64,000 nucleotides of DNA from Ceratodon purpureus. Taxonomy: Eukaryota; Streptophyta; Bryopsida; Pseudoditrichales; Ditrichaceae. The notes under the pieces are model-generated. The model saw nothing but the letters and a program-made list of their open reading frames with translations. It made no database searches and was not told the origin of the DNA. The stretch spans positions 3,800,529 through 3,864,528 of the forward strand of contig CM026425.1 in NCBI GenBank assembly GCA_014871385.1. The letters run 5' to 3'. The position numbers and the translations under genes were made by a program. Shown piece by piece: positions 28,384-51,178 of the stretch (within the stretch, counting starts at the first letter, position 1; the number at the start of each line of letters is the position of its first letter).

Positions 28384-28828
28384 AGTTAATCAAATGTATT
28401 CATGATTTTCTAAGTCTCTGTGAATTCCATTTTTTTAATGTTAACGAATCAGCGTAGACTGTGCTATTTGAGCTCATACGTCTTTCATTAACTATTCGCT
28501 TACAATCCTAACCATACATGGGCAAAATCAAAACATAGATAATTCCGGGCTTGCCCCTGTCAAAGGCCATCTGAACTGTACTGTTTCGTGCTGGAGTATC
28601 AAGAACTGACATTTTCGTGTGAAACTTAAATCTGCCGTGCTGGCGCCGGCTCCATATCATGTGTATCGAATAATGCACCGGACCACCCACAATCTGCCCG
28701 CCGGAGACTAGACTTGGAGGCTGTGTATCATTAAGGAATGAGGAATTACAGTCAGAAACCTGGATAGAGAAACGTGAATATCAAGGAAATGCCGGCGACG
28801 CCGAGGCGTGACGTTGACGGCAGAGTGC
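28384..28828. other. Unique sequence upstream of orphan gene
   Basis: Satellite homology ends at about 28383; the remainder is single-copy in the window and probably holds upstream control sequence of the gene at 28930. Confidence 0.4.
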
Positions 28829-28838
28829 TTTATATATC
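28829..28838 (+). promoter_or_regulatory. TATA box of orphan gene
   Basis: TTTATATATC about 95 nt upstream of the ATG at 28930, with a typical short leader between. Confidence 0.55.
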
Positions 28839-28929
28839 AGGTGCGAGAAGAACATGCTTGACTCAAAAGACCTGAATGCTCATTTCATTCTAAGGCGGAT
28901 AGTATATCATCATTTTCTGCCTCCTAACT

Positions 28930-29583
28930 ATGTCTCCTCTCATGTTTAGCCTCCACTCTGGAACACAGTTCTTGCTCAACCTTGGGACCATGCTTGAACC
29001 GCAGGTTGGAGATATAGTTATACGTAGAAGGCGGGCGGATTCCAACATCCGGTACTATCCATACAAGTCTCCGGAACAGTGGTACCAGTATCATAAGACA
29101 TGGCTGCTGAAGATCTTCCCGTCGTCAGTTCTTTATGCTTTAGATAGTGATAAAAGTAGTAATCTCCCTCCGAACATGAAATGCATGATGCTTATGGTTT
29201 GGGAGTACGGGCTTGGATTCAAGGAGGCGATGACAGGAGGAATACTTATTCCGAAGGCAGAAGACCCCGGAGCGGCGCAAGTGCTCGGTTTAGGACGCGG
29301 AGGAACCGTCCCTGACCAGAATACTATTGTCCTGGCATTTACGCAGCCGAGTATGCCTCATGGTCCAACATTTTTGCGTGCAGATTTCTGGAAAGAAAAG
29401 TACCTCCACGATGACTACGCAAACCTTATGGTTTTCTCAGTCGTAGACTCCCTCATTGGACCTAGCAACATGAGTAGAACAGTGACGAATTGGAGCAGAG
29501 CGGGTCTGTCTTGGGTATCCACTAACTCAATCACAGGGGCTTTATCGCAATACTCAGGGTTGACCCTCGTAAATCTAGGCTAG
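28930..29583 (+). CDS. Orphan single-exon gene, 217 aa, function unknown
   Basis: ATG at 28930, TAG at 29581-29583, with a TATA box about 95 nt upstream and AATAAA about 110 nt downstream, so it has a complete transcription-unit layout without introns. The protein is of average composition, neither low-complexity nor repeated, with aromatic-rich segments (SPEQWYQYHKTWLLKIFPSS, TFLRADFWKEKYLHDDYANL) and a glycine-rich segment (GLGRGGTVPDQN). No signal peptide, membrane helix or known family is recognised. It lies tail-to-tail with the ParB-methyltransferase gene, just beyond the satellite array. It could be a cargo gene of the mobile unit or a host gene. Confidence 0.6.
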   Translation: MSPLMFSLHSGTQFLLNLGTMLEPQVGDIVIRRRRADSNIRYYPYKSPEQWYQYHKTWLLKIFPSSVLYALDSDKSSNLPPNMKCMMLMVWEYGLGFKEAMTGGILIPKAEDPGAAQVLGLGRGGTVPDQNTIVLAFTQPSMPHGPTFLRADFWKEKYLHDDYANLMVFSVVDSLIGPSNMSRTVTNWSRAGLSWVSTNSITGALSQYSGLTLVNLG

Positions 29584-29694
29584 TTAGGCTCACTTCAGCT
29601 AGGAATATTGAGTGGTTGCACTGTTTGGAGTCGAACAGGGTAATGTTATTCCTGAAGGATATCTGTAAGTTTCTGAAGTATTACCAAGGAAGTC

Positions 29695-29700
29695 AATAAA
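29695..29700 (+). terminator. Poly(A) signal AATAAA
   Basis: AATAAA about 110 nt after the orphan gene stop codon. Confidence 0.5.
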
Positions 29701-29857
29701 AGTTGATAATTTACCGGTCATATTCGCATCGTGTAACCTGAACTTAACATCCATATGTAACCCCTTATGCCATCTCCTCCACTGAAATCAGAATCCCTTA
29801 TGCCATCTCATTATGGTCATTGTTTTTAATTTTATCCCTTCGCTAGGGCCCTCTGGA

Positions 29858-30060
29858 TCAACGTCGCAGCCCTTGGCACAATGCCTCGGCCCCGAGCAGA
29901 CTTCATTGGGTCCGTGACTCTGGTGAATTCATGATTTGTTACAGTTGTTACTGGAGCCCAATGAAGCAACCGTGGCTCACATGGCAATGCCTCGGTGCGA
30001 AACTCTCCTTTCAGGGGCTCACAGTCTGGTCAACGGATGTATGTTTGTCGTTCGTAATGG
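29858..30060 (+). repeat. Diverged 108-bp minisatellite units
   Basis: Two degenerate units (GTCGCAGCCCTTGGCACAAT and a second near 29960) in plus sense. The rest of 29701-30293 shows no coding frame and contains the 3' flank of the ParB-methyltransferase gene. Confidence 0.6.
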
Positions 30061-30293
30061 AGCGAATTGAAGCGACCGTGAAGCACTCCATCACAGTAAT
30101 TTTAGAAAGTGCTAATTTTATCATGTGGTGATTTTATCATCTGCTTTGCCATGTGCTAGGGCCCTTTGCAGCGTAGTTGCTTATGGGCCACCGTATTGTA
30201 TAAATATATAGTCGTGAATGTTCATTACTTGGAAAGCAAATACAAATACCGTGTAGACTAACTCAAGAGAAGGCTAATCACGTGACTGGGTTC

Positions 30294-33200
30294 CTACATT
30301 AGATGATTGGAGTCGCTAGGATCTGTACTGAACAAAGTGACGCTCGAGTCTGTATGCTCGGATGAGGAGGAGGTGATACTCGAGGAACTACTGAAGGAAG
30401 CTCCACCATCAGAAACAGCCTCACCATCGGACTCAAGAGCTTCGCTATCGATGAATTCCAGAGTCCTACTAGGGGGGTTTCTGGACTGAAAGGTACGGTG
30501 GTTGCCACGAGCTAGTTGAATAGCTGCATCGTTCGCGTAACTGGGAAGATGCCATGACTTTGGGGGGCTTGGGAAAAAATGTGGATGACAAAAAAAAGGA
30601 AGATTCATTGAAGTGCTCAGAATGCCGCATCTGCAAATATAAATGGCACAATGTTCATAAATCCAGTCCAGAGCAAATCATATTATAAAGAGTATGTAAC
30701 ATTACAAAACAAGTTTCTAAACTCACGTAGTGAACCGGGACCTCTTTGCAACCTTTGTCACATTGACTTCTCCATCGGGATCCTCACTAGTGACCAGTCT
30801 TGCGGTAGTAACGTTCGGGGCAGCAGTAGTTCGAATGAGAGGTTTCAATACAGCTGCGAAGATCTCCTGGTCGGCCTCCAAACCAACAATATGCCGATCA
30901 GCATGTCGGCATGCATGAATTGAGGAACCTGAGAGGGAGAGCAAGGTCGTTACTGAGGATACCTGGAAAATGGAAACTGAGAACTACAACGAAGAGGACT
31001 GTAGCTTACCAGTCGAGGTCGTGCAGTCAAGAACCACACTTCCAGGGTCGGTCATGGCCTCGACCAGCATCTGCAGAAGAGGAACGGACTTCTCGCGAGG
31101 GCCGCGCCAGGGCCTTGAGGCATTCATGAGCTGGGTGCCACGGGAAACGTGGTTCTGCAGGACATCATCCCGACCAACATCGTATCCAAGGCGCTCCAGT
31201 GCAGGCACCTCGCGAAATGAGAACCGGGATTTGCGGCCGCCGGACTTGAAGCTCCTCACAGCCAGTAGAATCCCCAACTTCATTGTCTGTAAAACAAGGA
31301 AGAACAATGGTTGCTTCACAGGGCTCTAGAACAAATATAAAGAACTACATGCACTGACCAGAGCTAGAGCCCTCAACAACGGTCCTCGGCACCGAGGCAT
31401 TATGCCAAGGGCTGCGAGGTTGCTTCGATGGGCCCCAGAGCAGCAAGAAAAACATGATGAGCTCATCACAGTTGGAGCCCTCAGCAGGAGCCCTCGGCAC
31501 CGAGGCATTTTGCCAGGGGCTGCGAGGTTGCTTCACAGGGCTCTAGAACAAACATGAAGAACTACATGCACTGACCAGAGCTGGAGCCCTCAGCAACGGT
31601 CCTCGGCACCGAGGCATTATGCCAAGGGCTGCGAGGTTGCTTCAATGGGCTCCAGAGCAGCAAGAAGAACATGATGCACTCATCACAGTTGGAGCCCTCA
31701 GCAGGAGCCCTCGGCACCGAGGCATTATGCCAGGGGCTGCGAGGTTGCTTCACAGGGCTCTAGAATAAACATGAAGAACTACATGCATTGACCAGAGCTG
31801 GAGCCCTTAGCAACTGTCCTCGGCACCGAGGCATTATGCCAAGGGCTGCGAGGTTGCTTCAATGGGCCCCAGAGCAGCAAGAAGAACATGATGCACTCAT
31901 CACAGTTGGAGCCCTGAGCAGGAGCCCTCGGCACCGAGGCATTATGCCAGGGGCTGCGAGGTTGCTTCACTGGGCTGAAGATATACCAATGACAAACTGT
32001 ACTAGGGGGTGACCCAGAAGTGAGCTTACCGTCAGTGTAGGATTGATGGGAGATGTGAGGTGAAGCTTATTCGTCCCCCACCACTCTTTCCGAACTTCAA
32101 ACTCAAAGGCGTCGCAGTACCCGAAGATCTCACCCTTTGTTGAGGCACGAAAGGGGTGGAATAATATGACGGCCCCATCATCATGTAAATGGTTGTCGGC
32201 GAAATCGAAAATGGGCTGCAAGCAGTTATCGGTGTCAATATTCCATGAGGGGATGGATGTGGGAGGATCGGAAACTCCAGGGACCGGCAGTCCCTCAGGA
32301 ATGTCCGCAATGATGAGGTCAACAACCGGATGCACCCTCGGCTCGCCCCTGAAGCGCAGGGATCTCCCTTCCGACTGCTGCACAATATCAAGCAAAGTAC
32401 TCCTCAATAAGGAGTCAAAGCCGAAATCACTCTAACTTACGACTACAACGAAATAGCACCCCGTGGCCACATTTTCATGCGCACGGTTACAGTATCCTGG
32501 ATGAAATCAATTGCACATTAGAAAGTACCTTGAGCAAGAAGCTCTTGATGTCGAGGTAGGCTTGGGTGAAATTATTAGAGGACCCCGCCAGGACATCCTT
32601 CAGTGAGGAATTGATGATGAGCTCGCGGTTGTTGCTCCCCTCCTTGTCACCTACATTAATGTTAGGGACCTGAGTGAGAGCTTCTTCGTACGTAGAGTCC
32701 ACATTGCGCTTTGTGCCCCTTGAGTTCGGAGGTGCCTGTGATCCCGAATTGCTTATAGGACTTTTCACAACATCCCCGCCGGGAGACTTCACTTTCCTCT
32801 TGCCTTTCTTCGAACTCTTCTCCGCGGCCTTCTGCTGCTTCTCCTCCTCCCTCTGAAGCGCCTTCTCCTCGGCCTCCTTGATCTTCTGTGCCTTCCTGCG
32901 ATCCTCCTCAACGCGGCGCTTCAAGGCCTTTGCTCTCTCGGCCTCGTCTTCAATCCCGAGAAGATCTTGCATCTCAGCCCCAGATTCACCTACGGAGTCT
33001 CTCGACTTCCTGAGCTCAACTTCAAACGATGGGGTGAAGCTGGATAGGCAATCTAGGTACCACGCACCGGCGCTAAGATGCGATGTGGTCCAGGTTCGTT
33101 GCTGAGCAGCAGAAAACATGCAACTGGAACTAGAGCGATCAACCCAAGCCTGAAGAAATATCGGAAGATCATCCTTTGAGATTGCCCCTTTCGCCAGTAG

Positions 33201-36200
33201 CTCGTACTTGAAGTACCTGCATTACGTACGACCAACATGTAAGTTACAGCCTGAACCAGCAGTAGTCATTGGCACCGAGGCATTGTACCTAGGGCAGCGA
33301 GGTAGCTAGAAAGCGCTCTAGAACAAACAAGAAGAACTACATGCACTGAGCTGGTGCCCTGAGCATGGGTCCTCGGCACCGAGGCATTATGCCAAGGGCT
33401 GCGAGGTTGCTTCAATGGGCCCCAGAGCAGCAAGAAAAACATTATGCAGTCATCACGGTTGGAGCCCTCAGCAGGAGTCCTCGGCACCGAGGCATTATGC
33501 CAGGGGCTGCGAGGTTGCTTCACAGGGCTCTAGAACAAACATGAAGAACTACATGCACTGACCAGAGCTGGAGCCCTCAGCAACGGTCCTCGGCACCGAG
33601 GCATTATGCCAGGGGCTGCGAGGTTGCTTCAATTGGCCCCAGAGCAGCAAGAAGAACATGATGCACTCATCACAGTTGGAGCCCTCAGCAGGAGCCCTCG
33701 GCACCGAGGCATTATGCCAGGGGCTGCGAGGTTGCTTCACAGGGCTCTAGAACGAACATGAAGAACTACATGCACTGACCAGAGCTGGAGCCCTCAGCAA
33801 CGGTCCTCGGCACCGAGGCATTATGCCAAGGGCTCCGAGGTTGCTTCAATGGGCCCCAGAGCAGCAAGAAAAACATGATGCACTCATCACAGTTGGAGCC
33901 CTCAGCAGGAGCCCTCGGCACCGAGGCATTTTGCCAGGGGCTGCGAGGTTGCTTCACCGGGCTCTAGAACAAACATGAAGAACTACATGCACTGACCTGA
34001 GCTGGAGCCCTCAGCAACGGTCCTCGGCACCGAGGCATTATGCCAAGGGCTGCGAGGTTGCTTCAATGGGCCCCAGAGCAGCAAGAAAAACATGATGCAC
34101 TCATCACAGTTGGAGACCTCAGCAGGAGCCCTCGGCACCGAGGCATTATGCCAGGGGCTGCGAGGTTGCTTCACAGGGCTCTAGAACAAACATGAAGAAC
34201 TACATGCACTGACCAGAGCTGGAGCCCTCAGCAACGGTCCTCGGCACCGAGGCATTATGCCAAGGGCTGCGAGGTTGCTTCAATGGGCCCCAGAGCAGCA
34301 AGAAAAACATGATGCACTCATCACAGTTGGAGCCCTCAGCAGGAGCCCTCGGCACCGAGGCATTTTGCCAGGGGCTGCGAGGTTGCTTCACAGGGCTCTA
34401 GAACAAACATGAAGAACTACATGCACTGACCTGAGCTGGAGCCCTCAGCAACGGTCCTCGGCACCGAGGCATTATGCCAAGGGCTGCGAGGTTGCTTCAA
34501 TGGGCCCCAGAGCAGCAAGAAAAACATGATGCACTCATCACAGTTGGAGCCCTCAGCAGGAGCCCTCGGCACCGAGGCATTATGCCAGGGGCTGCGAGGT
34601 TGCTTCACAGGGCTCTAGAACAAACATGAAGAACTACATGCACTGACCAGAGCTGGGGCCCTCAGCAACGGTCCTCGGCACCGAGGCATTATGCCAAGGG
34701 CTGCGAGGTTGCTTCAATGGGCCCCAGAGCAGCAAGAAAAACATGATGCACTCATCACAGTTGGAGACCTCAGCAGGAGCCCTCGGCACCGAGGCATTAT
34801 GCGAGGGGCTGCGAGGTTGCTTCACAGGGCTCTAGAACAAACATGAAGAACTACATGCACTGACCAGAGCTGGAGCCCTCAGCAACGGTCCTCGGCACCG
34901 AGGCATTATGCCAGGGGCTGCGAGGTTGCTTTAAGAGGATGCTCATAGTAAACTAAGTGAAGATAAGAGAATTACCTGTAAAGGACTCTTCGAACCACTA
35001 AGTCGGACCCCTTGAAATCCTTGAAGTCGTTGGACTTGGTGAAGGCGTCTGTACCTTTGAAGTACGACAAGAAGGCATGGTCAAATAGCTTCATTCTGCA
35101 ATCCTCTACGTAGGTCTCCAAACCCATGGGCTCTGTTGAGACGTTCATGTTGATTGGAGGTCGGTCCGAGCGGAGAATGTCGTCCAGAGAAGTGGATGCT
35201 TCCTCACTCAACTGAAAGATCGACTCGGCATACGTAATTGAATGAAGTACGCAGAAGTTAACAATAGGATCGAAACAGAAATACAGCATAGCATTACAGT
35301 GTAGTTGAGAGATATGACTCACTGCTGCCCAGAAGCATGCCCTTTCCAGCCAATGGGTGAGCCTCTGCTCGTTGCATGGTTTAGGTGGTAGGCACCGGGC
35401 CTCTCTTGTGGCTATAGAGGAGTTGAATAACTCGAGCCATCTGATCTTGGCGGTTGAAGAAGCCTTCGCCGTTGCTATCAGTTGCAGCTTTTCAAGATTC
35501 AACTCGGCGCCCGTGGAGCCGTTCAACGAGTAGTGCCGCTCAATCTGAATTGGCAGACCCCGAACCAAGATCAGTATGGCATAATCAGTGGTGTTCTTAT
35601 TCGATAGATCGGTGGAGCATAATGTATGGTAGTCCGGAGAAATGGAAACAATACCTCTTTCAAGAAACCTGGTGTTAGGTCCGGGTTAGCGACCGCTGTT
35701 AACTTGTTCATTTTCTTTATCAAGTTCTCGGTCTTCTTTGCAGCCGCCAACTTCATTGCAGCTGCTTTATCTTTCTCGGCGACGTCACCCTCAGCATTCT
35801 CGAGGTAAGCACGTAGCCCCTCGTCTGCTGCTCTGCTGATCTCATGCTGCACCAAGCGAGAAACTTGTCAAATTATGATAGAACGAATCATAGCGAGAAG
35901 TGGGGATTTGACAATACTCACAAAAAAAACGGAATGCAGTAATCAGAGGTGGTGCCCCAAGCATTAGTCCTCGGCAACAACGCATTATGCGAAGGGCTGC
36001 CAGGCATGAAGCCAAGGGCTCTAGAACTGAGGAAACGACATACATGCAGTGACCAGCATTGAAGCCCCGAGCATTTGACCTCGGCACCGAGGCATTAAGC
36101 CAAGGGCCGCGAGGTTGCTTCAAAGGGCTCGAGTACTGAGAAGACAGAAGACATACACTGAGCAGATTTGGTGCCCCCAGCATAAGTCCTCCGCACCGAG

Positions 36201-39200
36201 GCATTAGGCCATGGGATGCGAGGCTGCTTCACAGGGCTCTAACACTGAGAGTAAAAACGACATGCAGTGACCACAGTTGGAGCCCCCAGCATTGCTCGTC
36301 GGCACCGAGGCATTAAGCCAAGGGCTGCGAGGCTGCTTCACAGGGCTCTAACACTGAGAGTAAAAAGTACATGCTGTGACCACAGTTGGAGCCCCCAGCA
36401 TTGCTCGTCGGCACCGAGGCATTAAGCCAAGGGCTGCGAGGCTGCTTCACAGGGCTCTAACACTGAGAGTAAAAACGACATGCTGTGACCACAGTTGGAG
36501 CCCCCAGCATTGCTCGTCGGCACCGAGGCATTAAGCCAAGGGCTGCGAGGCTGAGAGTAAAAACGACATGCTGTGACCACAGTTGGAGCCCCCAGCATTG
36601 CTCGTCGGCACCGAGGCATTAAGCCAAGGGCTGCGAGGCTGCTTCACAGGGCTCTAACACTGAGAGTAAAAACGACATGCAGTGACCACAGTTGGAGCCC
36701 CCAGCATTGCTCGTCGGCACCGAGGCATTAAACCAAGGGCTGCGAGGTTGCATCAAAGAGCACATACGGAGGGAAATTTATAAAACAATTAGAGATGTTG
36801 AATCTCATGGTGTACCTGGTAAATGAAACTAGTGAATACATTCACAGGTAATGTGTACCACGTTCCGTGCTTAGTTTTCCTGCATCTCTTTACATCCGAG
36901 GGGGACAACAGCTCCTTAAATTGCTCGAAGGGCATGAGGCCGTACTTTTGAACTCTGAAAAGGGTGTGAACATCGTTCGTCTTCACATGACTGTCCTCGG
37001 TATGCCTGGCACAGGTACAACAGAACCAGATTTAATGTACTAACATGAAATACAGAAGGAATCGTAATAATGGAAAGATAACCACGATTAAGACTTTAGG
37101 AAACTTACTTGTTGATGTTGTGCATGACCTGCATGACTAACCCGATTCTACCCTTTGTGTCCAGAAGGATAGAGTCCACAAGGTAATGCCACGATTCATC
37201 GGCCTTGTGTAGGCGCTCAATATGGTTTAACCATGCTTGACAACGATGATTACCGTCACAAACAAAGAACATTAGATCTGCATATCCTGCAAGCTCCGGG
37301 ATCGATAGCAAGAAATCATTAAACTGATCGTTCTTCTTGTTCCAGATAGGGCCCCATCTGGCCTTATCAGCAGCCGAAACTTCCCTAGTCCTACCTCCTT
37401 CATCTGTAATTGACACGTAAAACACAGATGCCCCCTCCCGGTACCCGTGCGAGAACTCCTCTTCCAGTTTCGACAGGTCGCACTGCATCATCGGGCGCAC
37501 AATAGGCATTGGCTGCATTCTGCACAGAGGAATGTCTATACGTGAATAAGCAAAAGGCTTCACTCTCAGACTCGAAATAGTAGTGACAGAGTTAAGCTTC
37601 TGGCGAGATCGAATCTCGTCTAGATCTCCAGTGAAAGCGTCCTCATCATCAACCGAGTCATCGTCCTTTTCGGTGTTTCCTGGGGAGGCACACAATGCAA
37701 CTTTAAAACGAACATAAGAGGACCAAAACTGGAGGCCCCAGCGGGAGTCCTCGGCACCGAGGCATTACGCCAAGGGCTGCGAGGCTGCTTAAGGGGCACA
37801 CAATGCAACTCAGAATACATCATAAAAGGACCAAAATTGGAGCCCCCAGCATAAGTCCTCGGCACCGAGGCATGAAGCCAAGGGCTGCGAGGCTGCTAGA
37901 GGGGCACACATTGCAACTTTAAAATAAACATAAAAGGACCAAAATTGGAGCCCCCAGCATAAGTCCTCGGCACCGAGGCATGAAGCCAAGGGCTGCGAGG
38001 CTGCTAGGGGGGCACACAATGCAACTCAGAATACATCATAAATGGTCCAAAATTGGAGCCCCCAGCGGGAGTCCTCGGCACCGAGGCATTATGCCAAGGG
38101 CTGCGAGGCTGCTACAGGGGCACACAATGCAACTTTAAAATGAACATAAAAGGACCAAAATTGGAGCCCCCAGCATAAGTCCTCGGCACCGAGGCATGAA
38201 GCCAAGGGCTGCGAGGCTGCTCAAGGGGCACACAATGCAACTCATAATACATCATAATAGGACCAGAGCTGGAGCCCCCTGCATAAGTCCTCGGCACCGA
38301 GGCTTGATGCCAAGGGCTGCGAGGCTGCTAGGGGGGCACGCAATGCAACTCAGAATACATCATAAAAGGACCAGAGCTGGAGCCCCCAGCATAAGTCCTC
38401 GGCACCGAGGCTTGATGCCAAGGGCTGCGAGGCTGCTAGAGGGGCACAGAATGCAACTTAAAAATTAACAGAAAAAGACCACAGTGAAAGCCCCTAATGG
38501 GAGTCCTCGGCACCGAGGCATTATGCCAAGGGCTGCGAGGGTATCTTAATGGTCTCCTGGTACAATCGAGTAACACATTCATTAAGCACACTGTATTGAA
38601 CAGAACCCAGCGTAGACGATGTTCGTACCTGATTGTTGCTTGGTGTTGCGTCGACGTCATCCTCTCCTCCGCTCATGGTTACTGGACCACCTTTTCGTGG
38701 CACCTGTTCCAAAAGAGAAACAACATATATTGGTCAATCTTAGTTCCCTAAGGAGGACTGATCAACATAAAAAGACCAGAGGAGGAGCCCACAGCGTAAG
38801 CCCTCGGCACCGAGGCATTATTCCAAGGGCTGCGAGGCTGCTAGAGGGGCACACATTGCAACTTTAAAATGAACATAAAAGGACCAAAATTGGAGCCCCC
38901 AGCATAAGTCCTCGGCACCGAGGCATGAAGCCAAGGGCTGCGAGGCTGCTAGGGGGGCACACAATGCAACTTTAAAATGAACATAAAAGGACCAAAATTG
39001 GAGCCCCCAGCATAAGTCCTCGGCACCGAGGCATGAAGCCAAGGGCTGCGAGGCTGCTAGAGGGGCACAGAATGCAACTTTAAAATAAACAAAAAAGGAC
39101 CAAAATTGGAGCCCCCAGCATAAGTCCTCGGCACCGAGGCATTATGCCAAGGGCTGCGAGGCTGCTCAATGGCACACAATGCAACTTACAAATCAACATA

Positions 39201-42200
39201 ACAAAACCAAACTTGGAGCCCCTAGCGGGAGTCCTCGGCACCGAGGCATTATGCCAAGGGCTGCGAGGCTGCTAGAGGGGCACACAATGCAACTTTAAAA
39301 TGAACATAAAAGGACCAAAATTGGAGCCCCCAGCATAAGTCCTCGGCACCGAGGCATGAAGCCAAGGGCTGCGAGGCTGCTCAAGGGGCACACAATCCAA
39401 CTCATAATACATCATAATAGGACCAGAGCTGGAGCCCCCAGCATAAGTCCTCGGCACCGAGGCTTGATGCCAAGGGCTGCGAGGCTGCTAGGGGGGCACA
39501 CAATGCAACTCAGAATACATCATAAAAGGACCAGAGCTGGAGCCCCCAGCATAAGTCCTCGGCACCGAGGCTTGATGCCAAGGGCTGCGAGGCTGCTAGA
39601 GGGGCACAGAATGCAACTTAAAAATTAACAGAAAAAGACCACATTGAAAGCCCCTAATGGGAGTCCTCGGCACCGAGGCATTATGCCAAGGGCTGCGAGG
39701 GTATCTTAATGGTCTCCTGGTACAATCGAGTAACACATTCATTAAGCACACTGTATTGAACAGAACCCAGCGTAGACGATGTTCGTACCTGATTGTTGCT
39801 TGGTATTGCGTCGACGTCATCCTCTCCTCCGCTCATGGTTACTGGACCACCTTTTCGTGGCACCTGTTCCAAAAGAGAAACAACATATATTGGTCAGTCT
39901 TAGTTCCCTAAGGAGGACTGATCAACATAAAAAGACCAGAGGAGGAGCCCACAGCGTAAGCCCTCGGCACCGAGGCATTATTCCAAGGTTAGCGAGGCTG
40001 CTCAAGGGGCACACAATGCAACTTACAAATCAACATAACAAGACCAAAATTGGAGCCCCCAGCGGGAGTCCTCGGCACCGAGGCATTATGCCAAGGGCTG
40101 CGAGGCTGCTAGAGGGGCACACAATGCAACTTTAAAATGAACATAAAAGGACCAAAATTGGAGCCCCCAGCATAAGTCCTCGGCACCGAGGCATGAAGCC
40201 AAGAGCTGCGAGGCTGCTAGAGGGGCACACAATGCAACTTTAAAATGAACATAAAAGGACCAAAATTGGAGCCCCCAGCATAAGTCCTCGGCACCGAGGC
40301 ATGAAGCCAAGGGCTGCGAGGCTGCTAGGGGGGCACACAATGCAACTCATAATACATCATAAAAGGACCAAGATTGGAGCCCTCACCATAAGTCCTCGGC
40401 ACCGAGGCTTGATGCCAAGGGCTGCGAGGCTGCTAGGGGGGCACACAATGCAACTCATAATACATCATAAAAGGACCAAGATTGGAGCCCCCAGCATAAG
40501 TCCTCGACACCGAGGCTTCATGCCAAGGGCTGCAAGGCTGCTAGGGGGGCACAAAATGCAAATTAAAAAACGTCATAAACAAACCAAGATTCGACCCCCC
40601 AGCATAAATCCTCGGCACCGAGGCTTGATGCCAAGGGCTGCGAGGCTGCTCAAGGGGCACACAATGCAACTTACAAATCAACATAACAAGACCAAAATTG
40701 GAGCCCCCAGCATAAGTCCTCGGCACCGAGGCATGAAGCCAAGGGCTGCGAGGCTGCTAGGGGGGCACACAATGCAACTCATAATACATCATAAAAGGAC
40801 CAAGATTGGAGCCCTCAGCATAAGTCCTCGGCACCGAGGCTTGATGCCAAGGGCTGCGAGGCTGCTAGGGGGGCACACAATGCAACTCATAATACATCAT
40901 AAAAGGACCAAGATTGGAGCCCCCAGCATAAGTCCTCGACACCGAGGCTTCATGCCAAGGGCTGCAAGGCTGCTAGAGGGGCACACAATGCAACTTAGAA
41001 TACATCATAAATGGACCAAAATTGGAGCCCCCAGCATAAATCCTCGGCACCGAGGCTTGATGCCAAGGGCTGCGAGGCTGCTCAAGGGGCACACAATGCA
41101 ACTTACAAATCAACATAACAAGACCAAAATTGGAGCCCCCAGCATAAGTCCTTGGCACCGAGGCATGAAGCCAAGGGCTGCGAGGCTGCTAGAGGGGCAC
41201 ACAATGCAACTTAGAATACATCATAAATGGACCAAAATTGGAGCCCCCAGCATAAGTCCTCGGCACCGAGGCTTGATGCCAAGGGCTGCGAGGCTGCTCA
41301 AGGGGCACACAATGCATCTTACAAATCAACATAACAAGACCAAAATTGGAGCCCCCAGCATAAGTCCTCGGCACCGAGGCTTCATGCCAAGGGCTGCGAG
41401 GCTGCTAGGGGGGCACACAATGCAACTAACAAATCAACATAACAAGACCAGAGCAGGAGCCCCCAGCATAAGTCCTCGGCACCGAGGCTTGATGCCAAGG
41501 GCTGCGAGGCTGCTCAAGGGGCACACAATGCAACTTACAAATCAACATAACAAGACCAAAATTGGAGCCCCCAGCGGGAGTCCTCGGCACCGAGGCATTA
41601 TGCCAAGGGCTGCGAGGCTGCTAGGGGGGCACACAATGCAACTTAGAATACATCATAAATGGACCAAAATTAGAGCCCCCAGCATAAGTCCTCGGCACCG
41701 AGGCTTGATGCCAAGGGCTGCGAGGCTGCTCAAGGGGCACACAATGCAACTTACAAATCAACCTAACAAGACCAAAATTGGAGCCCCCAGCGGGAGTCCT
41801 CGGCACCGAGGCATTATGCCAAGGGCTGCGAGGCTGCTAGAGGGGCACAAAATGCAAATTAAAAAACGTCATAAACAAACCAAGATTGGACCCCCTAGCA
41901 TAAGTCCTCGGCACCGAGGCTTGATGCCAAGGGCTGCGAGGCTGCTAGAGGGCACACAATACAACTTTAAAATGAACATGAAAGGTCCTAAATTGGAGCC
42001 CCCAGCATAAGTCCTCGGCACCGAGGCATGAAGCCAAGGGCTGCGAGGCTGCTAGAGGGGCACACAATGCAACTTAGAATACATTATAAATGGACCAAAA
42101 TTGGAGCCCCCAGCATAAGTCCTCGGCACCGAGGCTTGATGCCAAGGGCTGCGAGGCTGCTCAAGGGGCACACAATGCATCTTACAAATCAACATAACAA

Positions 42201-45200
42201 GACCAAAATTGGAGCCCCCAGCATAAGTCCTCGGCACCGAGGCTTCATGCCAAGGGCTGCGAGGCTGCTAGGGGGGCACACAATGCAACTAACAAATCAA
42301 CATAACAAGACCAGAGCAGGAGCCCCCAGCATAAGTCCTCGGCACCGAGGCTTGATGCCAAGGGCTGCGAGGCTGCTCAAGGGGCACACAATGCAACTTA
42401 CAAATCAACATAACAAGACCAAAATTGGAGCCCCCAGCGGGAGTCCTCGGCACCGAGGCATTATGCCAAGGGCTGCGAGGCTGCTAGGGGGGCACACAAT
42501 GCAACTTAGAATACATCATAAATGGACCAAAATTGGAGCCCCCAGCATAAGTCCTCGGCACCGAGGCTTGATGCCAAGGGCTGCGAGGCTGCTCAAGGGG
42601 CACACAATGCAACTTACAAATCAACCTAACAAGACCAAAATTGGAGCCCCCAGCGGGAGTCCTCGGCACCGAGGCATTATGCCAAGGGCTGCGAGGCTGC
42701 TAGAGAGGCACAAAATGCAAATTAAAAAACGTCATAAACAAACCAAGATTGGACCCCCCAGCATAAGTCCTCGGCACCGAGGCTTGATGCCAAGGGCTGC
42801 GAGGCTGCTAGAGGGCACACAATACAACTTTAAAATGAACATGAAAGGTCCTAAATTGGAGCCCCCAGCATAAGTCCTCGGCACCGAGGCATGAAGCCAA
42901 GGGCTGCGAGGCTGCTCAAGGGGCACACAATGCAACTTTAAAATGAACATGAGAGGACCTAAATTGGAGCCCCCAGCATAAGTCCTCGGCACCGAGGCAT
43001 GAAGCCAAGGGCTGCGAGGCTGCTAGGGGGGCACACAATGCAACTCATAATACATCATAAAAGGACCAAAATTGGAGCCCCCAGCATAAGTCCTCGGCAC
43101 CGAGGCTTGATGCCAAGGGCTGCAAGACTGCCAGGGTTGTCACGGTCGTCCGGGACGCTCGGGACGTGGGGACGTCCGCGGACGTCCGCCAGCGCCAGGG
43201 GACGTCCTATGACTTAGAAAAAAAAAATCACCCGCATAGGTTTCACCCCGGGGTGAAACCACATCTTCTACGCGGCGGAGGGGTTGCAGGGGAGGGTGCG
43301 GCCGTCGCCGCGGAGCGGGGGGGGGCCGTCGGACGCGTCGGGAAAGGGCCATCCCCAGCGACGGCCCCTTGCCGTCGCCGCGGAGCGGGGGGCCCTCCCC
43401 GGCGACGGCCCCTAGCCGTCGCCGCGGTGGGGGGGGGCCGTCCCCGGCGACGGCCCTTTGCCGTCGCCGCGGTGGGGGGGGCCGTCCCCGGCGACGGCCC
43501 CTTGCCTTCGCCGCGGTGGGGGGGGCCGTCCCCGGCGACGGCCCCTAGCCGTCGCCGCGGTGGGAGAGGGCCGTCCCCGGCGACGGCCCCTTGCCGTCGC
43601 CGCGGTGGGGGGGGCTGTCCCCGGCGACGGCACCTTGCCGTCGCCGCGGTAGGGGGGCCGTCCCCGGCGACGGCCCCTTGCCGTCGCCGCGGGGACGGCC
43701 GCAAATTTTTTTTAAAAAAATCCCGAATCTTAAAATCTTCATAACTTCTTCAAAACGTCTCCAAATCGGGCTTATGAGGTGTTTTTTGGCATCTACATTT
43801 CCTGTAGATGCCAAAAAACATCTCATAAGTCCGATTTGGACAAGTTTTGAAGAAGTTACGGGAATTTGGAGATTTCGGGGAGTTGAGGGGTCGGCCGTCG
43901 GCGGGGAAGGGGGGCCGACCCCCGGGGACGGCCGTGGGGACGGCAGGCCGTCCCCGGCGACGGCCGCGGGGACGGCCGCAAATTTAAAAAAAAAATCCCG
44001 AATCTTAAAATCTTCATTACTTCTTCAAAACGTATCCAAATCGGGCTTATGAGGTGTTTTTTGGCATCTACATTTCCTGTAGATACCAAAAAACATCTCA
44101 TAAGTCCAATTTGGACAATGTTTGAAGAAGTTACGGGAATTTGGAGATTTCGGGGAGTTGAGGGGTCGGCCGTCGGCGGGGACGGGGGGCCGACCCCCGG
44201 GGACGGCCGTGGGGACGGCAGGCCGTCCCCGGCGACGGCCGCGGGGACGGCCGCAAATTTAAAAAAAAAATCCCGAATCTTAAAATCTTCATAACTTCTT
44301 CAAAACGTCTCCAAATCGGGCTTATGAGGTGTTTTTTGGCATCTACATTTCCTGTAGATGCCAAAAAACATCTCATAAGTCCAATTTGGACAATGTTTGA
44401 AGAAGTTACGGGAATTTGGAGATTTCGGGGAGTTGAGGAGTCGGCCGTCGGCGGGGACGGGGGGCCGACCCCCGGGGACGGCCGTGGGGACGGCCGGCCG
44501 TCCCCGGCGACGGCCGCGGGGACGGCCCCCCGTCCGCTTGGAGGCGGGGTCTCGCATGGCCTTCCTTCTTCTCTTGCGTTTTCTCTAGAGACGGCCATCC
44601 CTCCCCTCCTCCTCTCGTCCAACCTTGACAAAAAAAATTCTATTTCTAGATACTCTAAAAACAAAATCAATACCGAATTAGAAATTTCAGACATATCCCT
44701 GAAATCATGGAAAATGTCCAAAAGATTTTGTAATCGGGATTGTGGGATCCGCCTTGATGTTGGGGTATACTTTAGAAGGAGATATTTATGCCCTTCAATT
44801 GTTGGTGCTCTACTATGGTTTGCAAACATAATCTCAATGTTTAGAAGGAAGAATCCATTTGTTTTGGAAATGAAATTATGGCCCATGGGCCTATAGACGA
44901 GGGAGGTATACGATGGGGGGTACAACTTAAAAGGTAATGAGAAGCTTATAAAAAATAATATTCTTTTATTTGAAGACATTAGGTAATAAAATTAAAAGAG
45001 AACTCGACATGGATTTCTCTTACATTAATATGACAAGTTTGTATGTTTTTGGCTTTAATTTTATATGGCAAGACAAATCCCTTTTTCCATAAATGGAACA
45101 TTGGAATTAAATAAAGGATAAACTTGAAATTTAGAAATGAATTTGAATGAGAGGATTTGGAAGGTATGTTGTAGAGGACGTAACACTTAAAAATTAGATT

Positions 45201-48200
45201 TCAAATCAAATTAGATAGAAGTTGAAATTGTGTGAAGGAGGTTGGAGGACACATTAAATAGAATTGAGGATTGTAAAGTTGAATTAGAAGTCGAAGATGG
45301 TGGACAAAAAATTCATTATAAGTGATAGAGGATAGAAATTTAAATACAACAAATTTTAGTTCTAATAATAAATAAATTGATTAATTAATTAAAAAACCAA
45401 GCAATCTGACAAGGATGGATGTTTAATTTTAAAAGGTGAGTGAATTTTGAAGGTTTGGGAGTTGACATTAAGAGAACTGTTTCTTGCTTTTGAAATGAAA
45501 GATATGCTAGTATTACATTTGAGTACTTGGGCAAGTGAATGCCACATTGTTTGCCTTCCATTCCTTTTAGACAAACACCAAGTCTATATGGCTTAAAGTT
45601 TAACAAATCTCGTCAATTTTTTATTCTGAGACTTATGATTTCTTTCCATCTTAAAGGTGATTCATAATCATTATTTTTATGAATGAAAGACATAACATGT
45701 GGATTCATCTAAATGTGGAAATACAAACACATACTTCATAGCCAAAAATTTATATTTGTTTATTTATTTATTTAAGTATTTAATTATTTTGTATTCTTTT
45801 CTTAGTCTCCGATTCTACCTTTTATTTTTATACTTTTTCCATTTGCCTTCTATGCTATCTTCTTGTTATTTTATTATTACACTATTATTCCATTCTATAC
45901 TCTGAACTTTTTATTATTACACTATTTTTCCATTCTATCGTCTCTTTAGTTTTTCATCTTAACATTATTCTTCCATTTTATCTTCTCATTTTCCTATCCT
46001 TCCATTCCTCTCCCATCATCTATTTATTTATTTAATATTCCTCTAATCTGTCTCCCATTCTATCTTTTTACTTTTGCCTATCGGAAGAAAGGAAAAATAA
46101 ATAAAAGATTAGGGGATTATATTATGTACAAGACAATAATAAAAAACAGACAATTGAAATAAAATACAATATGACAGTAAATGAAACATAACAAATAACC
46201 GCGAGACAGACAAACTACAATGGGAAAAGGTTTGAAGGAAATAGATGTGTATAGAGAAGATAGATATCAAGGGAAAAAACAAAAAATAAAAAAAGTACAT
46301 GAGAGGTAATAATAAATCAAAAAGATAATTAGAATAAAAGATCAAATAAAAAATAATAATAATAATTGCAAAAGTGGAAATGACATACAAGAAGAAATGA
46401 GGAGTATGAAGTGAATAGAAAAAACCATGTCATGGTGATAACATTATGGCAAAAGAAGAAACTAAATAAAAATATCCAACTTAGAAAGGACTTTTTTCTT
46501 AAAGATTAAAGGATTAGATAAAGCACGAGACAATAATTGGAAAATAGTTAATTAAAATTACATAGAATAAAATGGTATTTGAAAACATAAGAAATAAGTT
46601 CAATAACACTAAGATATACAAACTAAAGTGGGCATAATTTTAAATACCCAAGAAAGCAATTAATTAGGAAAAGAGCATTTTCATGGAAAAAAGGATTTGT
46701 CTTGCCTTATAAAATTAAAGCCAAAAACATACAAACTTGTCATATTAATGTAAGAGAAATCCATGTCGAGTTCTCTTTTAATTTTATTACCTAATGTCTT
46801 CAAATAAAAGAATATTATTTTTTATAAGCTTCTCATTACCTTTTAAGTTGTACCCCCCATCGTATACCTCCCTCGTCTATAGGCCCATGGGCCATAATTT
46901 CATTTCCAAAACAAATGGATTCTTCCTTCTAAACATTGAGATTATGTTTGCAAACCATAGTAGAGCACCAACAATTGAAGGGCATAAATATCTCCTTCTA
47001 AAGTATACCCCAACATCAAGGCGGATCCCACAATCCCGATTACAAAATCTTTTGGACATTTTCCATGATTTCAGGGATATGTCTGAAATTTCTAATTCGG
47101 TATTGATTTTGTTTTTAGAGTATCTAGAAATAGAATTTTTTTTGTCAAGGTTGGACGAGAGGAGGAGGGGAGGGATGGCCGTCTCTAGAGAAAACGCAAG
47201 AGAAGAAGGAAGGCCATGCGAGACCCCGCCTCCAAGCGGACGGGGGGCCGTCCCCGCGGCCGTCGCCGGGGACGGCCGGCCGTCCCCACGGCCGTCCCCG
47301 GGGGTCGGCCCCCCGTCCCCGCCGACGGCCGACCCCTCAACTCCCCGAAATCTCCAAATTCCCGTAACTTCTTCAAACATTGTCCAAATTGGACTTATGA
47401 GATGTTTTTTGGCATCTACAGGAAATGTAGATGCCAAAAAACACCTCATAAGCCCGATTTGGAGACGTTTTGAAGAAGTTATGAAGATTTTAAGATTCGG
47501 GATTTTTTTTAAAAAAATTTGCGGCCGTCCCCGCGGCCGTCGCCGGGGACGGCCGGCCGTCCCCACGCGGTCGGCCACGTGGACGGCCGCGTCTCCACGC
47601 GGTCGCCCACGCGGTCGGCCGCGGGATCGGACGGCCCTCCGCGGCCAACCATGCCGGCCGCGGGCCATCCGATCCCGCGGCCGTCGCCGTTGCCGACCGC
47701 GGGGTCGGCCAAGGGGACGGCCGCGGGATCGGACGGCCCGCGGTCGGCCGCGCCGCTCGAGCGGTCCCCGATGGCCTGCGCCGAGGTCGATCCGGGCCGT
47801 TGGATCCCGCGGCCGTCCCCGAGGCCGTCCCCGCGGTCGGCCACGGTGACGGCCGTGGGATCCGACGGCCCAGGAGGGCCGCCCACATCCGACGGCCCGC
47901 GATGTGCCAGCACGGCCGCATCTTGGCCGTCGGATCGACGTGCGGCCGTCCCCAACGACCCCGCGGCCGTCTCCGCGGCCGTCCCCGCGGCCGTCCCCGC
48001 GAACGGACGGCCGAGATGGGGCGTGGTGGCGGGATCGGCCGATCGGACGGCTGGGGAATGTTTTTACCCCTCCGGGGTCGCAAAATTATTACCGCGACGT
48101 AATTCTCGAGCGTCGGGGACGCCACGTCCGGGACGGGGGACGTCCGGGTCGGACGTCTTGACGTCCGGAGCAGGGTCGGACGTCTATTTGAACAACCCTG

Positions 48201-49802
48201 GAGACTGCTACGGGAGCACACAGTGCAACTTAAAAATGAACATAGAAAGACCAGAGCAGGAGCCGCCTGCATAAGTCCTCGGCACCGAGGTATAAAGCCA
48301 AGGTCTGCGAGGCTACTAGGGGGGCACACAATGCAACTTACAAATCAACAGAAGAAGCCTACAGTTGGAGCCTCCGGCACAAGTTCTGGGCACCGAGGCA
48401 GTATGCCGAGGGCTGCGGGGATGCGAGAAGGGCACACAATACAACTTACAAATCAACATAAAACGACGAGAGTGGGAGCCGCAGCGGGTGTACCTTAAAC
48501 CGAGGCATTATGCCGTGGGCTACGACGCTGCTTGAAAGGGCTGTAGAATGGAGTGATATTACGACATGAGCTGATCGGAGTTGGAGCCCAAGCATTAGCT
48601 CATACCTGATTGTTTGAGGGTGTTGCGATCATGACGTTGCCTCCTCTGGTCGCGATGAAAGGACCACCGCTGTCGCTGGTACTGCTTCCCGCACCGGTTT
48701 GAGGCTGCGACATCGAAATTTGTATTCTCTCAGAAAACCCTGGATATTAGGTATCCTCGCGAGACCTAATGCTGTACTAACCAGAAGCTCCAATTACTCG
48801 AAATGGATGGCATCAACAAGCTAAAGGAAGACGTATATAATGCAGAACATAATAACATATGAAGTCGTCACCTGAATATGGTTGCTGGGCTTCAGCTTTA
48901 CTGGTGCTCGCATACTCCGGTCGACTGATTCTTCCTCCATGTCGTCCTCGACTTCGATCTGCTCCAGGAGCTGTAGTAATAACTAAATGCTCAATGAGGT
49001 CTGCAGTGCAGGGGAATGGAAGACCAACAGAAGGGACACCAAAATCACAAGGAACGCAGAATACTACGTAGGATGTCGTTGCGAGGCTGCATGCGCCCCC
49101 TCTCTCTTAACCTAGACCCGTCCTACGTATATGCTGCGGTCTGAATCGGCCCCCTAGGCTATTGCAACGAGAACTTGCCTCAGTCGGTGCCGACCCCGAT
49201 ATTACCGCCAACGAACTATTATTAAGGATTCGCTCTTTGCAATTTCTCAGTACGTAAATAATATGACAAGAACGCAAAAAATGAATTCATACGGCTCAAA
49301 CATCGTTCAATCTGTGACCATTTTAATCACATGAGTAATAGGCCTTATCGTCCGCAGGAAACGTCCCGCACTAAACCCTCAATTCCTAAACTACAGCCTA
49401 CTCGATGACTATGTACTTGACAACTCTGAAGTAACCCATACTCATGAGGACAGTGGTGTTTATTGTCTACCAGAGAACGAAGTTGACAAGCGTATGCATG
49501 GTTCCCATTGAATTGGAGCATACCTTACTGCGAGGATTCTGGATGGGCGTTCCGTCCTCTTCCACATAGTTCAGAGTTCGCGGTGAAACATCGTCTCGTC
49601 CAATCGAAGCGCCAGGCCGTCTAGTTTGTCCTCCGACGGCCTGACTAGAATTCCCTCCCTTCTTCCCCATCGCTGAACGCAAATTGTACGGGGATTCAGT
49701 GACCTCCGGAGCCGCTAACCTCCTCTTCCTTCGAAGACGCCTCCGTTTCTGTACAGACCTGGATAACTCTGCCTGCGCCTTCGAAGCAGACCATGTGATC
49801 AT
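30294..49802 (-). CDS. ParB-like / beta-type DNA methyltransferase-like fusion gene, 15 predicted exons
   Basis: Predicted exons on the minus strand: 49802-49524, 48970-48872, 48704-48606, 39863-39789, 38703-38629, 37665-37109, 37005-36816, 35846-35655, 35544-35323, 35211-34976, 33216-32529, 32431-32030, 31286-31010, 30928-30727, 30630-30294. All borders are GT..AG and phases agree, giving about 1,309 codons with no stop; the start of exon 6 is the least certain (AG at 37666 chosen for phase). Order: basic nuclear-type N-terminus (RRRLRRKRR), PYNLRSAMGKK, acidic linkers, a ParB/sulfiredoxin-like domain with VCDGNHRCQAW (about residue 346), an Ala/Lys-rich helix, a charged coiled coil with KKGKRKVKSP, then a methyltransferase-like domain and a Ser-rich acidic tail. 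Head-to-head with gene B. Confidence 0.7.
30727..32431 (-). other. Exons 12-14: permuted DNA amino-methyltransferase-like domain
   Basis: Exon 12 has VDLIIADIPEG at about residues 940-951, where N4C/N6A methyltransferases have (D/N/S)PP(Y/F/W), followed by a strand-like HDDGAVILFHP. Exon 13 has GPREKSVPLLQMLVEAMTDP then GSVVLDCTTSTG (about 1110-1131), matching motifs X and I (usually D-P-F-x-G-S-G). Exon 14 continues SSIHACRHADRHIVGLEADQ, like motif II. The order IV then X-I-II is that of beta-class enzymes. The SAM-binding side is well kept; the catalytic tetrapeptide reads DIPE, so activity is doubtful or altered. Confidence 0.62.
31320..31978 (-). repeat. 217-bp minisatellite in intron 12
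   Basis: Three 217-bp units, each a dimer of about 108 bp with CCTCGGCACCGAGGCATTAT and CCAAGGGCTGCGAGGTTGCT on the plus strand. Confined to the intron between exons 12 and 13. Confidence 0.9.
33235..34935 (-). repeat. 217-bp minisatellite in intron 10
   Basis: About eight 217-bp dimer units (starts at 33549, 33766, 33983, 34200, 34417, 34634 mark the period). Fills nearly all of the 1.76-kb intron between exons 10 and 11. Confidence 0.92.
35935..36765 (-). repeat. About 108-bp minisatellite in intron 7
   Basis: About seven to eight monomeric units, the later ones nearly identical to each other and distinct from the dimer type of introns 10 and 12 (GCTCGTCGGCACCGAGGCAT). Confidence 0.88.
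36816..37665 (-). other. Exons 6-7: ParB/sulfiredoxin-like domain
   Basis: Exon 6 holds PLCRMQPMPIVRPMM, a long helical part, then FFVCDGNHRCQAW, which resembles the G-x-H/R-R-x-x-A box of ParB and sulfiredoxin folds. Copy 1 (16517-16916) aligns throughout (VCDGNHRYQAW). In bacteria ParB-like domains are often fused to N4/N6 DNA methyltransferases, which matches the domain partner here. Exact biochemical role (nucleotide hydrolysis, DNA binding) cannot be read from the sequence. Confidence 0.55.
37690..38545 (-). repeat. 108-bp minisatellite in intron 5
   Basis: About eight units in the intron between exons 5 and 6, with the GGGGCACACAATGCAACT variant that dominates the 38-43 kb arrays. Confidence 0.9.
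38196..39960 (-). repeat. 1,160-bp tandem segmental duplication containing an exon
   Basis: Sequence at 38196-38800 recurs at 39356-39960 with an offset of exactly 1,160 bp and few changes. The duplicated block carries minisatellite units and the 75-nt exon encoding GGPVTMSGGEDDVDA(T/I)PSNNQ, so exons 4 and 5 of the gene are duplicates. The exon is a multiple of three and phase 0 at both ends, so the duplication keeps the frame. Confidence 0.85.
39920..43131 (-). repeat. Large 108-bp minisatellite array in intron 3
   Basis: About 30 units of 108 bp. A higher-order block of about 863 bp (8 units) is repeated: features at 41189 and 41621 recur at 42052 and 42484. Because 108 is divisible by three, long stop-free frames arise on both strands and are not genes. 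Confidence 0.92.
43124..43131. repeat. Left 8-bp target-site duplication
   Basis: AAGACTGC directly before the CAGGGTTGT end; pairs with GAGACTGC at 48201-48208 (7 of 8 identical). The surrounding minisatellite unit normally reads GAGGCTGC here. Confidence 0.7.
43330..43700. repeat. GC-rich minisatellite, about 44 bp, 7-8 units
   Basis: Units of CCGTCCCCGGCGACGGCCCC, GCCGTCGCCGCGG and a run of 6-10 G. Extremely CpG-dense, with G runs that could form quadruplexes. Related GC-rich sequence recurs at 61915-62110. Confidence 0.85.
43743..43857. repeat. 115-nt hairpin, 55-bp stem
   Basis: Arms 43743-43797 and 43803-43857 pair over 55 positions with about four mismatches around a 5-nt loop (TTTCC); the innermost part around GGCATCTACA is perfect. 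Further copies: about 44018-44133, 44287-44408, 47366-47480 and 61757-61872. Confidence 0.85.
48201..48208. repeat. Right 8-bp target-site duplication
   Basis: GAGACTGC immediately after the ACAACCCTG end, matching the left duplication at 7 of 8 positions. The minisatellite resumes right after it. Confidence 0.7.
48209..48560 (-). repeat. Diverged 108-bp minisatellite, start of intron 3
   Basis: Three to four degenerate units between the hAT-like element and exon 3. They are the 5'-most units relative to the gene and the most diverged. Confidence 0.75.
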
Positions 49803-50325
49803 CTCTGATTCTAATGGGCCATCCGAAGCATTACGTAATGGCTTGAAAAAATAGCTGACGAGGGATCTATGAACCCCATAATATGTTGATTCTTTAAAAT
49901 GTCTTAAAGCGTGTCATTATGAGCTAGACCGCGATTTATAGTTCTCACTGACATTTGGGCCCTCCATAAGATATTTGGACGCTAATAGTTGTCTTAATGA
50001 ATGAGCCGCCGTTGGCTGTACGTGGAATACATGAAATTAGTTACCTGATAATATTCCAATATCTACTCACCAGGACGTAGCATTTGTTCTGCAGCACAAG
50101 TTAGTTCACCTTTCATACTGTCACGTATTAACTGCATGTAAACAACCATGCGAAGACTGCGCCGTCCCTGATTCATTCTTTGCATTAATATAGCCCTCCT
50201 AGACACGTGTTTTAACATGAGCCGAGGCTGCGTTCATTGTACTCCTATATAAGAAATGTCACTGGCTCCTCCATTTCCAGACGCATTTCCAGACTGAGAT
50301 AATCTTAGTAGAGGCTTCACTGGAG
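49803..50325. promoter_or_regulatory. Divergent promoter region, copy 2
   Basis: The 523-bp gap between the ParB-methyltransferase gene (minus) and gene B (plus). TATAAATC on the minus strand (49933-49940) and TATATAAG on the plus strand (50246-50253) match the box types at the equivalent places in copy 1. Confidence 0.62.
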
Positions 50326-50781
50326 ATGGAGGCAGAACCGCTCATGTCCCCTTCTCGTATACTTCTAGATTCACAGGTAGTGGGAGAGTATGAGGTGTCC
50401 TTAGACGATTTTCAGGGTCCCTTTGATCCAGTTCCAGATTGCAGCTTGCCAGACTCCAAGGAGCCACCCACCCAAGTTGCTTCCGTTCATGTCATGATTG
50501 TGGACGCCGAGGGCTGTGTCCAATCGGCCACACCAACCACGGTAGAAGGAGAACGGGCTGTGTGCGACGTTATTAGTGCAGCCCATGCGTACGCCAAAGT
50601 TGGAAACATCAAACCGGGGACCTACTCCAGATGTCTTTTAAGAAGCACCCCTCGTCCGAAAGGACGTAAGCTCCAAAGTAGAGGCTGCTGGACTGCAATT
50701 AGCACTCATGGGCTTCTTGAAGACAGTATCAAAGACTACGATGCGAGGGAGCCATCCAGAAAACACATTCGTCGAGTTTAA
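50326..50781 (+). CDS. MULE-associated gene B, copy 2 (151 aa)
   Basis: ATG at 50326 about 75 nt below a TATATAAG box; TAA at 50779-50781. Acidic N-terminal half (SLDDFQGPFDPVPDCSLPDS) and basic C-terminal half (AYAKVGNIKPGTYSRCLLRS, PRPKGRKLQSRGC) align with copy 1. In both copies the protein ends in a basic tail and stops at the same place, so it is a gene of its own rather than a 5' exon of the transposase. No known family is recognised. It lies 0.4 kb before the transposase on the same strand. It resembles in layout, not in sequence, the small second proteins of some autonomous plant MULEs. Confidence 0.7.
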   Translation: MEAEPLMSPSRILLDSQVVGEYEVSLDDFQGPFDPVPDCSLPDSKEPPTQVASVHVMIVDAEGCVQSATPTTVEGERAVCDVISAAHAYAKVGNIKPGTYSRCLLRSTPRPKGRKLQSRGCWTAISTHGLLEDSIKDYDAREPSRKHIRRV

Positions 50782-51178
50782 CAGAGTAGTGGGATTAAAG
50801 ACCTTGGAGTACGTGTACCTGAATGTGATCGGAATGGTTCTGCTGTAATGAAAGCGTTTCATTGTAATAAAAAATCTATTAGTACTAAAAGTGGCCGTCA
50901 TCTTCCACTCATGTCTGTAATATCCCAGCCTATATGACAATGAATATTAGGGCGGGCATGTTCTCTGGACTTGTACTAATCCATGATTAATTAGTTCATA
51001 TAAGGTTATTCGCTCCAGAAATTATCCTAACTATACGTCTTAATGTTAACCGTCTCCTGAATCATGTACTCTTGTGTGAGTTTAGAAGAATGTCGCAGCG
51101 AGAAGGGTACGTAATATTCTGTGATCATCTCCTCCGCCGTGTTTGCTTTTTTCACATCTCGCTCTTCGTGTTCACAGT
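50782..51178. other. Spacer before the transposase, possible mini exon
   Basis: A possible first exon is 51090-51106 (ATG TCG CAG CGA GAA GG, donor GTACGT), spliced to T at 51178 after TTCGTGTTCACAG, which would add MSQREG in frame before the MAYLRAD start. Translation from ATG 51179 works equally well. Confidence 0.35.

Follow-up and report, generated by a model that had tools for sequence, protein, structure and literature searches.

The 15-exon gene that joins a ParB-like to a methyltransferase-like part in the window analysed here (the whole 64,000-nucleotide stretch, C5:3800529-3864528 of the 362-Mb Ceratodon purpureus genome) is almost certainly an accessory (passenger) gene of a giant terminal-inverted-repeat DNA transposon, which is multi-copy in this moss. 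As a whole, we consider it probable that this accessory gene encodes a protein that binds its own element and in which the methyltransferase part has a role other than the usual one. A sequence-only reading had placed the feature at 30294..49802; its extent is wider, as the gene is part of an element at 16920..56184.

The window copy of the element measures 39,265 bp (16920..56184, ends GGGGAAATGCTA...TTAGTGACGTCC), as delimited by the homology breakpoints against copies A (on C12) and B (on C3). Comparison of repeats located inverted repeat arms near its ends, the left one of about 72 bp starting 15 bp inside the end (16935..17007, plus strand) and the right one at 56099..56170 (minus strand). 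The layout comprises two head-to-head genes, one transposase-like and the other the 15-exon ParB-like/methyltransferase-like gene, in the 26-kb copy A and the 39-kb window copy. Copy A (26,084 bp) also has inverted repeats of about 72 bp and carries the same exon set along with the three ORFs of the transposase side, T0, T1 and T2. Copies A and B are 99.5% identical over 6.1 kb and 99.7% identical over 3.0 kb adjoining the two ends, the comparison covering the end regions, and their end homology stops at identical bases. Both ends were identified in five copies, of which four (A, B, C8 and C41) are flanked by perfect 9-bp target-site duplications; the window copy has none (AGGCCTGGT / GGCATGTTC). 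The window copy differs from copy A in a unit of about 2,026 bp, repeated in tandem about five times at 17871..28384 according to self-repeats and expanded relative to copy A, and in a segment at 43137..48200 that is missing from copy A. This GC-rich and AT-rich segment holds two ORFs on opposite strands (44131-44991 and 46782-47849) whose translations resemble each other and reappear near 61153-62196; it is probably a nested mobile element.

Next to the window copy sits an older copy of another subfamily in inverted orientation (5056..16919, with a weak match reaching 3606). Its transposase-like ORFs, on the minus strand, carry stops, and the left end of the window copy falls within its ParB-like exon. 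Sequence matches identify its exon 1 (11687-11956, plus strand) and the truncated ParB-like exon (16463-16919, plus strand). Elsewhere in the window, three adjoining plus-strand ORFs at 56823-59971 match NLI-interacting-factor phosphatases (PF03031; 3e-12, 5e-9 and 3e-5) and have DINGL, DIKGL and CVNGL at the position of DxDxT, which we take to be the motif expected in these phosphatases; they form a local cluster of probably inactive paralogues. In a minus-strand ORF at 1505-2689, a group of cysteines bears a weak likeness to RING/PHD domains (E 0.07-0.2).

Matches to both genes are numerous across the genome; because scoring was limited to the top-ranking candidates, all counts are minima. 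Exon 6, which holds the ParB-like box, has at least 152 genome matches (best 150 of 1,874 candidates scored), exon 12 at least 150 (best 150 of 1,760), the methylase protein P0121 at least 211 (best 150 of 2,842 first-look candidates) and the transposase-like ORF T1 at least 61 (best 61 of 2,759). When T1 copies were scored against the 150 listed exon 6 places, 56 of the 61 had a ParB-like exon in divergent (head-to-head) orientation within 25 kb, at distances of 4.0-20.0 kb; for the remaining five, none of these places lay that near in this orientation. On C6 (110.5 Mb, a size that we take to be that of the sex chromosome), stops interrupt 21 of the 45 listed ParB-like exon copies, compared with 10 of 105 elsewhere, and 18 of the 20 listed exon 12 matches with stops sit on C6 (both our own counts); the copies there therefore look older.

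The transposase-like gene occupies the plus strand and comprises T0 (50221..50781), an upstream ORF found in the ORF list and in copy A; T1 (51125..53335), identified by its genome matches; and T2 (53822..55282), taken from the ORF list. T1 and T2 can be joined through a GT..AG intron into a protein of 1,188 residues. Twenty-six T1 copies, the window copy included, share 99-100% identity, 25 of them without a stop, and the dN/dS of T1 is 0.18. T2 ends in a CxC..CxH tail, which we take to be SWIM-like, and a D..D..E arrangement was likewise read by eye. A 9-bp target-site duplication is typical of Mutator elements. Terminal inverted repeats combined with such a duplication, as expected of a MULE, were found in the four copies named above and not in the window copy. 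The duplication length, together with the D/D/E and SWIM-like motifs, suggests that the element is Mutator-like, although we do not classify it as a MULE. A competing assignment would place the element outside Mutator, in a Sola1- or KDZ-like group of DNA transposons, and retains a substantial, if minority, share of the probability: the joined T1 and T2 protein has no Pfam match, as would suit such a group, while the 9-bp duplications in four of five copies speak against it insofar as this length marks Mutator. In its favour, a published ParB-methyltransferase transposon is a Sola1 element (PMC12477816).

The accessory gene (30294..49802, minus strand) was recovered as originally modelled: splicing of the window sequence yields 15 minus-strand exons running from 49802 to 30294, all introns being GT..AG with compatible phases, and a frame of 3,930 nt (1,309 codons plus stop); two splice borders, at exons 6 and 12, need correction. 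The spliced frame and the exon set of copy A together define exon 1 with a basic N-terminus (49524..49802), exon 2 (48872..48970), exon 3 (48606..48704), exons 4 and 5 (39789..39863 and 38629..38703), exon 7 (36816..37005), exon 8 (35655..35846), exon 9 (35323..35544), exon 10 (34976..35211), exon 11 (32529..33216), in which a charged coiled-coil-like and a basic stretch were seen by eye, and exon 15 with a serine-rich tail and the stop (30294..30630). Exons 4 and 5 are a coding exon that was tandemly duplicated together with the flanking array, adding an extra 25-residue repeat to the protein, and this cassette is present twice in copy A as well. Exon 6 (37109..37665) and exon 12 (32030..32377 with its revised start; motif IV region VDLIIADIPEGLPVPG) are based on the spliced frame and on protein relatives, and exon 13 (31010..31286; motif X and the beginning of motif I, VVLDCTTST) and exon 14 (30727..30928; the remainder of motif I, followed by motif II, IVGLEADQ) on the spliced frame, Pfam and the exon pieces of P0121. 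The motifs quoted in the sequence-only reading are all present: exon 6 contains VCDGNHRCQAW, exon 12 ADIPEG, exon 13 both VPLLQMLVEAMTDP and VLDCTTST(G), and exon 14 VGLEADQ. P0121 (KC19_5G032000), a C. purpureus protein, joins the exons of a paralogue at corresponding places, and its three exon pieces were found exactly at locus L096 of the genome with GT/AG borders.

Regarding the two borders, a start of exon 12 at 32377 (...GTGCAG|CAGTCG) is more probable than one at 32431, because metagenome relatives align only from about that point; with this revision, the protein would comprise 1,291 codons. In copy A, exon 6 begins at AG|GCTGATGGCGGG (ADGGMDAPQFEEDTPGNTEK...), and in the window copy a tandem array replaces this acceptor and the first exon 6 residues, so that a cryptic acceptor is needed for exon 6 here.

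The ParB-like part was claimed from the VCDGNHRCQAW box in exon 6, and the box itself held up while profile support for the domain did not appear. At E up to 10, 312 of 359 candidates are protein relatives of exon 6, the 120 listed being 64-99% identical; in 45 aligned sequences, C136, D137, G138, N139, H140 and A144 are invariant and R141 is conserved in at least 90%. A DG.HR box is the signature of the ParB/sulfiredoxin superfamily. In a Pfam profile search, ParB_N (PF02195) was matched neither by exon 6, with or without exon 7, nor by the 45 relatives, and the genome translated without regard to introns gave no PF02195 hit for this part; comparison of the exon 6 family with one phage ParB family likewise gave no profile-profile match (hhalign prob 0.2). 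The best of five AlphaFold2 models of this part is of middling quality (pLDDT 64, pTM 0.64; an earlier attempt reached pLDDT 41.7), and its order of strands and helices, along with the box, may resemble the ParB/Srx fold. A weak DUF1015 match falls on the DGNHR box in 8 of the 45 members (best E 0.061), and DUF1015 is counted among the architectures of the ParB-CTPase fold in PMC12704722. On balance, we lean towards a ParB/Srx fold and treat this part as ParB-like.

The C-terminal part is, with high confidence, a permuted beta-class DNA N6A/N4C amino-methyltransferase fold. The Pfam profile N6_N4_Mtase (PF01555), proposed as a check in the sequence-only reading, matches across the spliced exon 13/14 junction (E 4e-6), scoring 27.4 bits against the full protein (residues 1101-1156) and 30.5 bits (4.4e-7) against the methyltransferase domain alone, both above the curated cut-off of 26.7; the paralogue P0121 falls just under it at 25.2 bits. 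Furthermore, PDB entries 5hek/5hfj (adenine-specific DNA methyltransferase, DpnA) match the domain at 2e-6, and tblastn at E up to 0.01 returned 299 phage records, 36 of which cover at least 80% of the query. The order IV, then X, I, II, read at first from short motifs, is borne out by the co-linear match to PHROG 67 (9e-9), which spans residues 37-251 of a domain of 265, and by tblastn co-linearity over residues 17-250.

The catalytic tetrapeptide is indeed altered, in the window copy and beyond it. The canonical (D/N/S)PP(Y/F/W) is absent from the window copy, where motif IV reads ADIPEG, and relatives mostly have D-x-P-E/D. All 12 metagenome relatives covering motif IV carry E at the aromatic position, 11 of them retaining the preceding Pro; 20 genomic loci of other subfamilies read AD[L/V]PEG in 19 cases and ADLPKG in one (L094); and 12 further copies, mostly picked for their divergence and read by eye, have E in nine (two of these without the Pro), D in two and K in one, K being found at this position in some copies (L094, L132). 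The usual active site thus seems to be lost, and we regard this part as a derived member of the fold and not as an active enzyme.

It is nevertheless conceivable that the protein is an active modifier, binding its own transposon and writing 4mC or 6mA with a D-x-P-E/D motif that still works. The Asp of motif IV is kept, the Pro mostly so, motifs I and II are recognisable, and the bacterial relative P0134 has DIPY at this position; such an activity has also been proposed for algal transposon proteins (PMC12477816). Against this stands the replacement of the aromatic residue by E in all metagenome rows and by E or, rarely, D or K in the two genomic sets. In the rotifer enzyme N4CMT, moreover, changing both the Ser and the Tyr of SPPY to Ala abolishes activity, according to PMC8885841. 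Because the aromatic residue is lost, the writing of methylation is judged less likely, and we consider this reading improbable.

The introns of the accessory gene are filled with units of about 108 bp. Repeat analysis delineated 108/217-bp tandem arrays at 31349..31976 and 33257..34931 and 108/324-bp arrays around exons 4 and 5 (37683..43136), all with the palindrome CCTCGGCACCGAGG, as well as a 109-bp array at 35934..36755. Each of the 73 window occurrences of the palindrome CCTCGG-CA/TG-CCGAGG falls within the element, 67 of them in the gene span and none in exons; in copy A, all 74 are inside the element and none is found in 7.9 kb of flanks, and shuffled sequence contains none. Two other subfamilies (one copy each) have different units, of 65 and 129 bp, in the introns of the same gene, and the palindrome of the window subfamily was not found in the loci read of these two. 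No 8-mer other than CTCGCAGC reaches 8, 8 and 4 gene-strand copies in the three subfamilies (observed 68, 12 and 4, with 0.2-0.9 expected in shuffles of the stretches on both strands), a count to be read knowing that this 8-mer had been noticed by eye beforehand, that the thresholds were set for it and that tandem copies are not independent. The arrays resemble parS iterons; alternatively, they could be mere intron expansion.

We propose no more than a tentative scheme for the protein's action. The protein would be made from the accessory gene and enter the nucleus, where its ParB-like part would dock onto the tandem arrays typical of the subfamily that encodes it, with CTCGCAGC as the shared core. 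The methyltransferase part, in which an acidic residue stands where DPPY has its aromatic one, might for that reason bind SAM or DNA, or block host silencing, without the usual methyl transfer, a step that is less certain. With such a binding or anti-silencing role, the protein would act like VANC of VANDAL elements. A self-binding, anti-silencing function is a plausible suggestion, somewhat short of an even chance. Its most specific form is rather doubtful: a self-recognition factor, arisen independently of VANC, that combines a ParB-like clamp with a methyltransferase bearing an acidic for an aromatic residue, reads its own fast-evolving intronic iterons (CTCGCAGC) and shields its subfamily from silencing.

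The possibility that the methylase-like gene is idle cargo, selection acting on the transposase only, appears quite remote. Genes of obscure purpose are common in giant elements (PMC12477816), and the missing splice acceptor of the window copy would fit such a gene. Three observations argue otherwise: the two exon 6 copies inside the window have a dN of 0.255 over 145 codons against a saturated dS, which suggests purifying selection on exon 6; exon 12 is free of stops in 130 of the 150 matches listed (counted by eye); and the linkage between T1 and the ParB-like exon has been retained in 56 of 61 cases. A single host gene of bacterial origin that was domesticated, for which the open 1,309-codon spliced frame with introns and the selection on exon 6 might be cited, can be virtually dismissed, being contradicted for the window copy by at least 150 copies across chromosomes, many of them near-identical, in elements with target-site duplications.

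The sequence-only reading had considered a fusion of this type remarkable as a single nuclear gene; the gene instead recurs many times in the genome as part of a giant transposon. Since ParB-methyltransferase accessory genes have already been reported in algal transposons, the kind is known and the moss gene is a variant of it. Judging from the open literature searched, what is new is the host, a moss, together with the type of duplication, the changed motif and the arrays. The range of such genes, so far algal, thereby comes to include a land plant and a transposon whose duplications are 9 bp long. The altered motif, the many near-identical copies and the subfamily-specific arrays, in a host that can be grown and sequenced, allow a long-standing question to be tested: whether transposon-borne proteins target the element's DNA in order to modify it or to ward off host silencing. 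If the most specific form of the scheme is true, a bacterial-type partition/modification module has been turned into a transposon anti-silencing reader. The case also serves as a warning that a strange plant gene may be transposon cargo.

Several known systems share parts of this design. Gene 71 of Vibrio phage 1.213.O (L006) encodes a single protein with ParB_N ahead of N6_N4_Mtase, matching the arrangement of the two parts in the moss; this protein is only about 404 aa long, with its parts about 100 aa apart and a DPPY motif, whereas more than 500 residues separate the two parts in the moss protein. Fusions of the ParB-CTPase fold to an N6_N4 methyltransferase are frequent in phages (PMC12704722), and DNA nicking is described for a Bacillus cereus ParB-methylase (PMC5512222). 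The N4CMT of bdelloid rotifers is likewise a bacterial-type amino-methyltransferase fixed in a eukaryote; it differs in being, as described in PMC8885841, an enzymatically active, horizontally transferred host enzyme with SPPY and a chromodomain. VANC of the VANDAL Mutator-like elements of Arabidopsis is, like the moss gene, a DNA-transposon accessory gene, and it binds fast-diverging tandem repeats, noncoding and differing between families, which the moss arrays resemble (PMC10398659). Another counterpart is Sola1-1_Ec32 of Ectocarpus, a giant transposon of 21.5 kb (26 kb in the moss) in which a ParB-like and amino-methyltransferase gene, encoding a long protein (1,104 aa, compared with about 1,300 in the moss), lies on the strand opposite the transposase, as in the moss; PMC12477816, which describes it, also cites green and red algal ParB-methyltransferase cases. 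Compared with these algal systems by their description in that source, the moss element is distinguished by its moss host, its 9-bp duplications and its subfamily-specific intronic arrays, and may also differ in having a motif IV of the form D-x-P-E/D.
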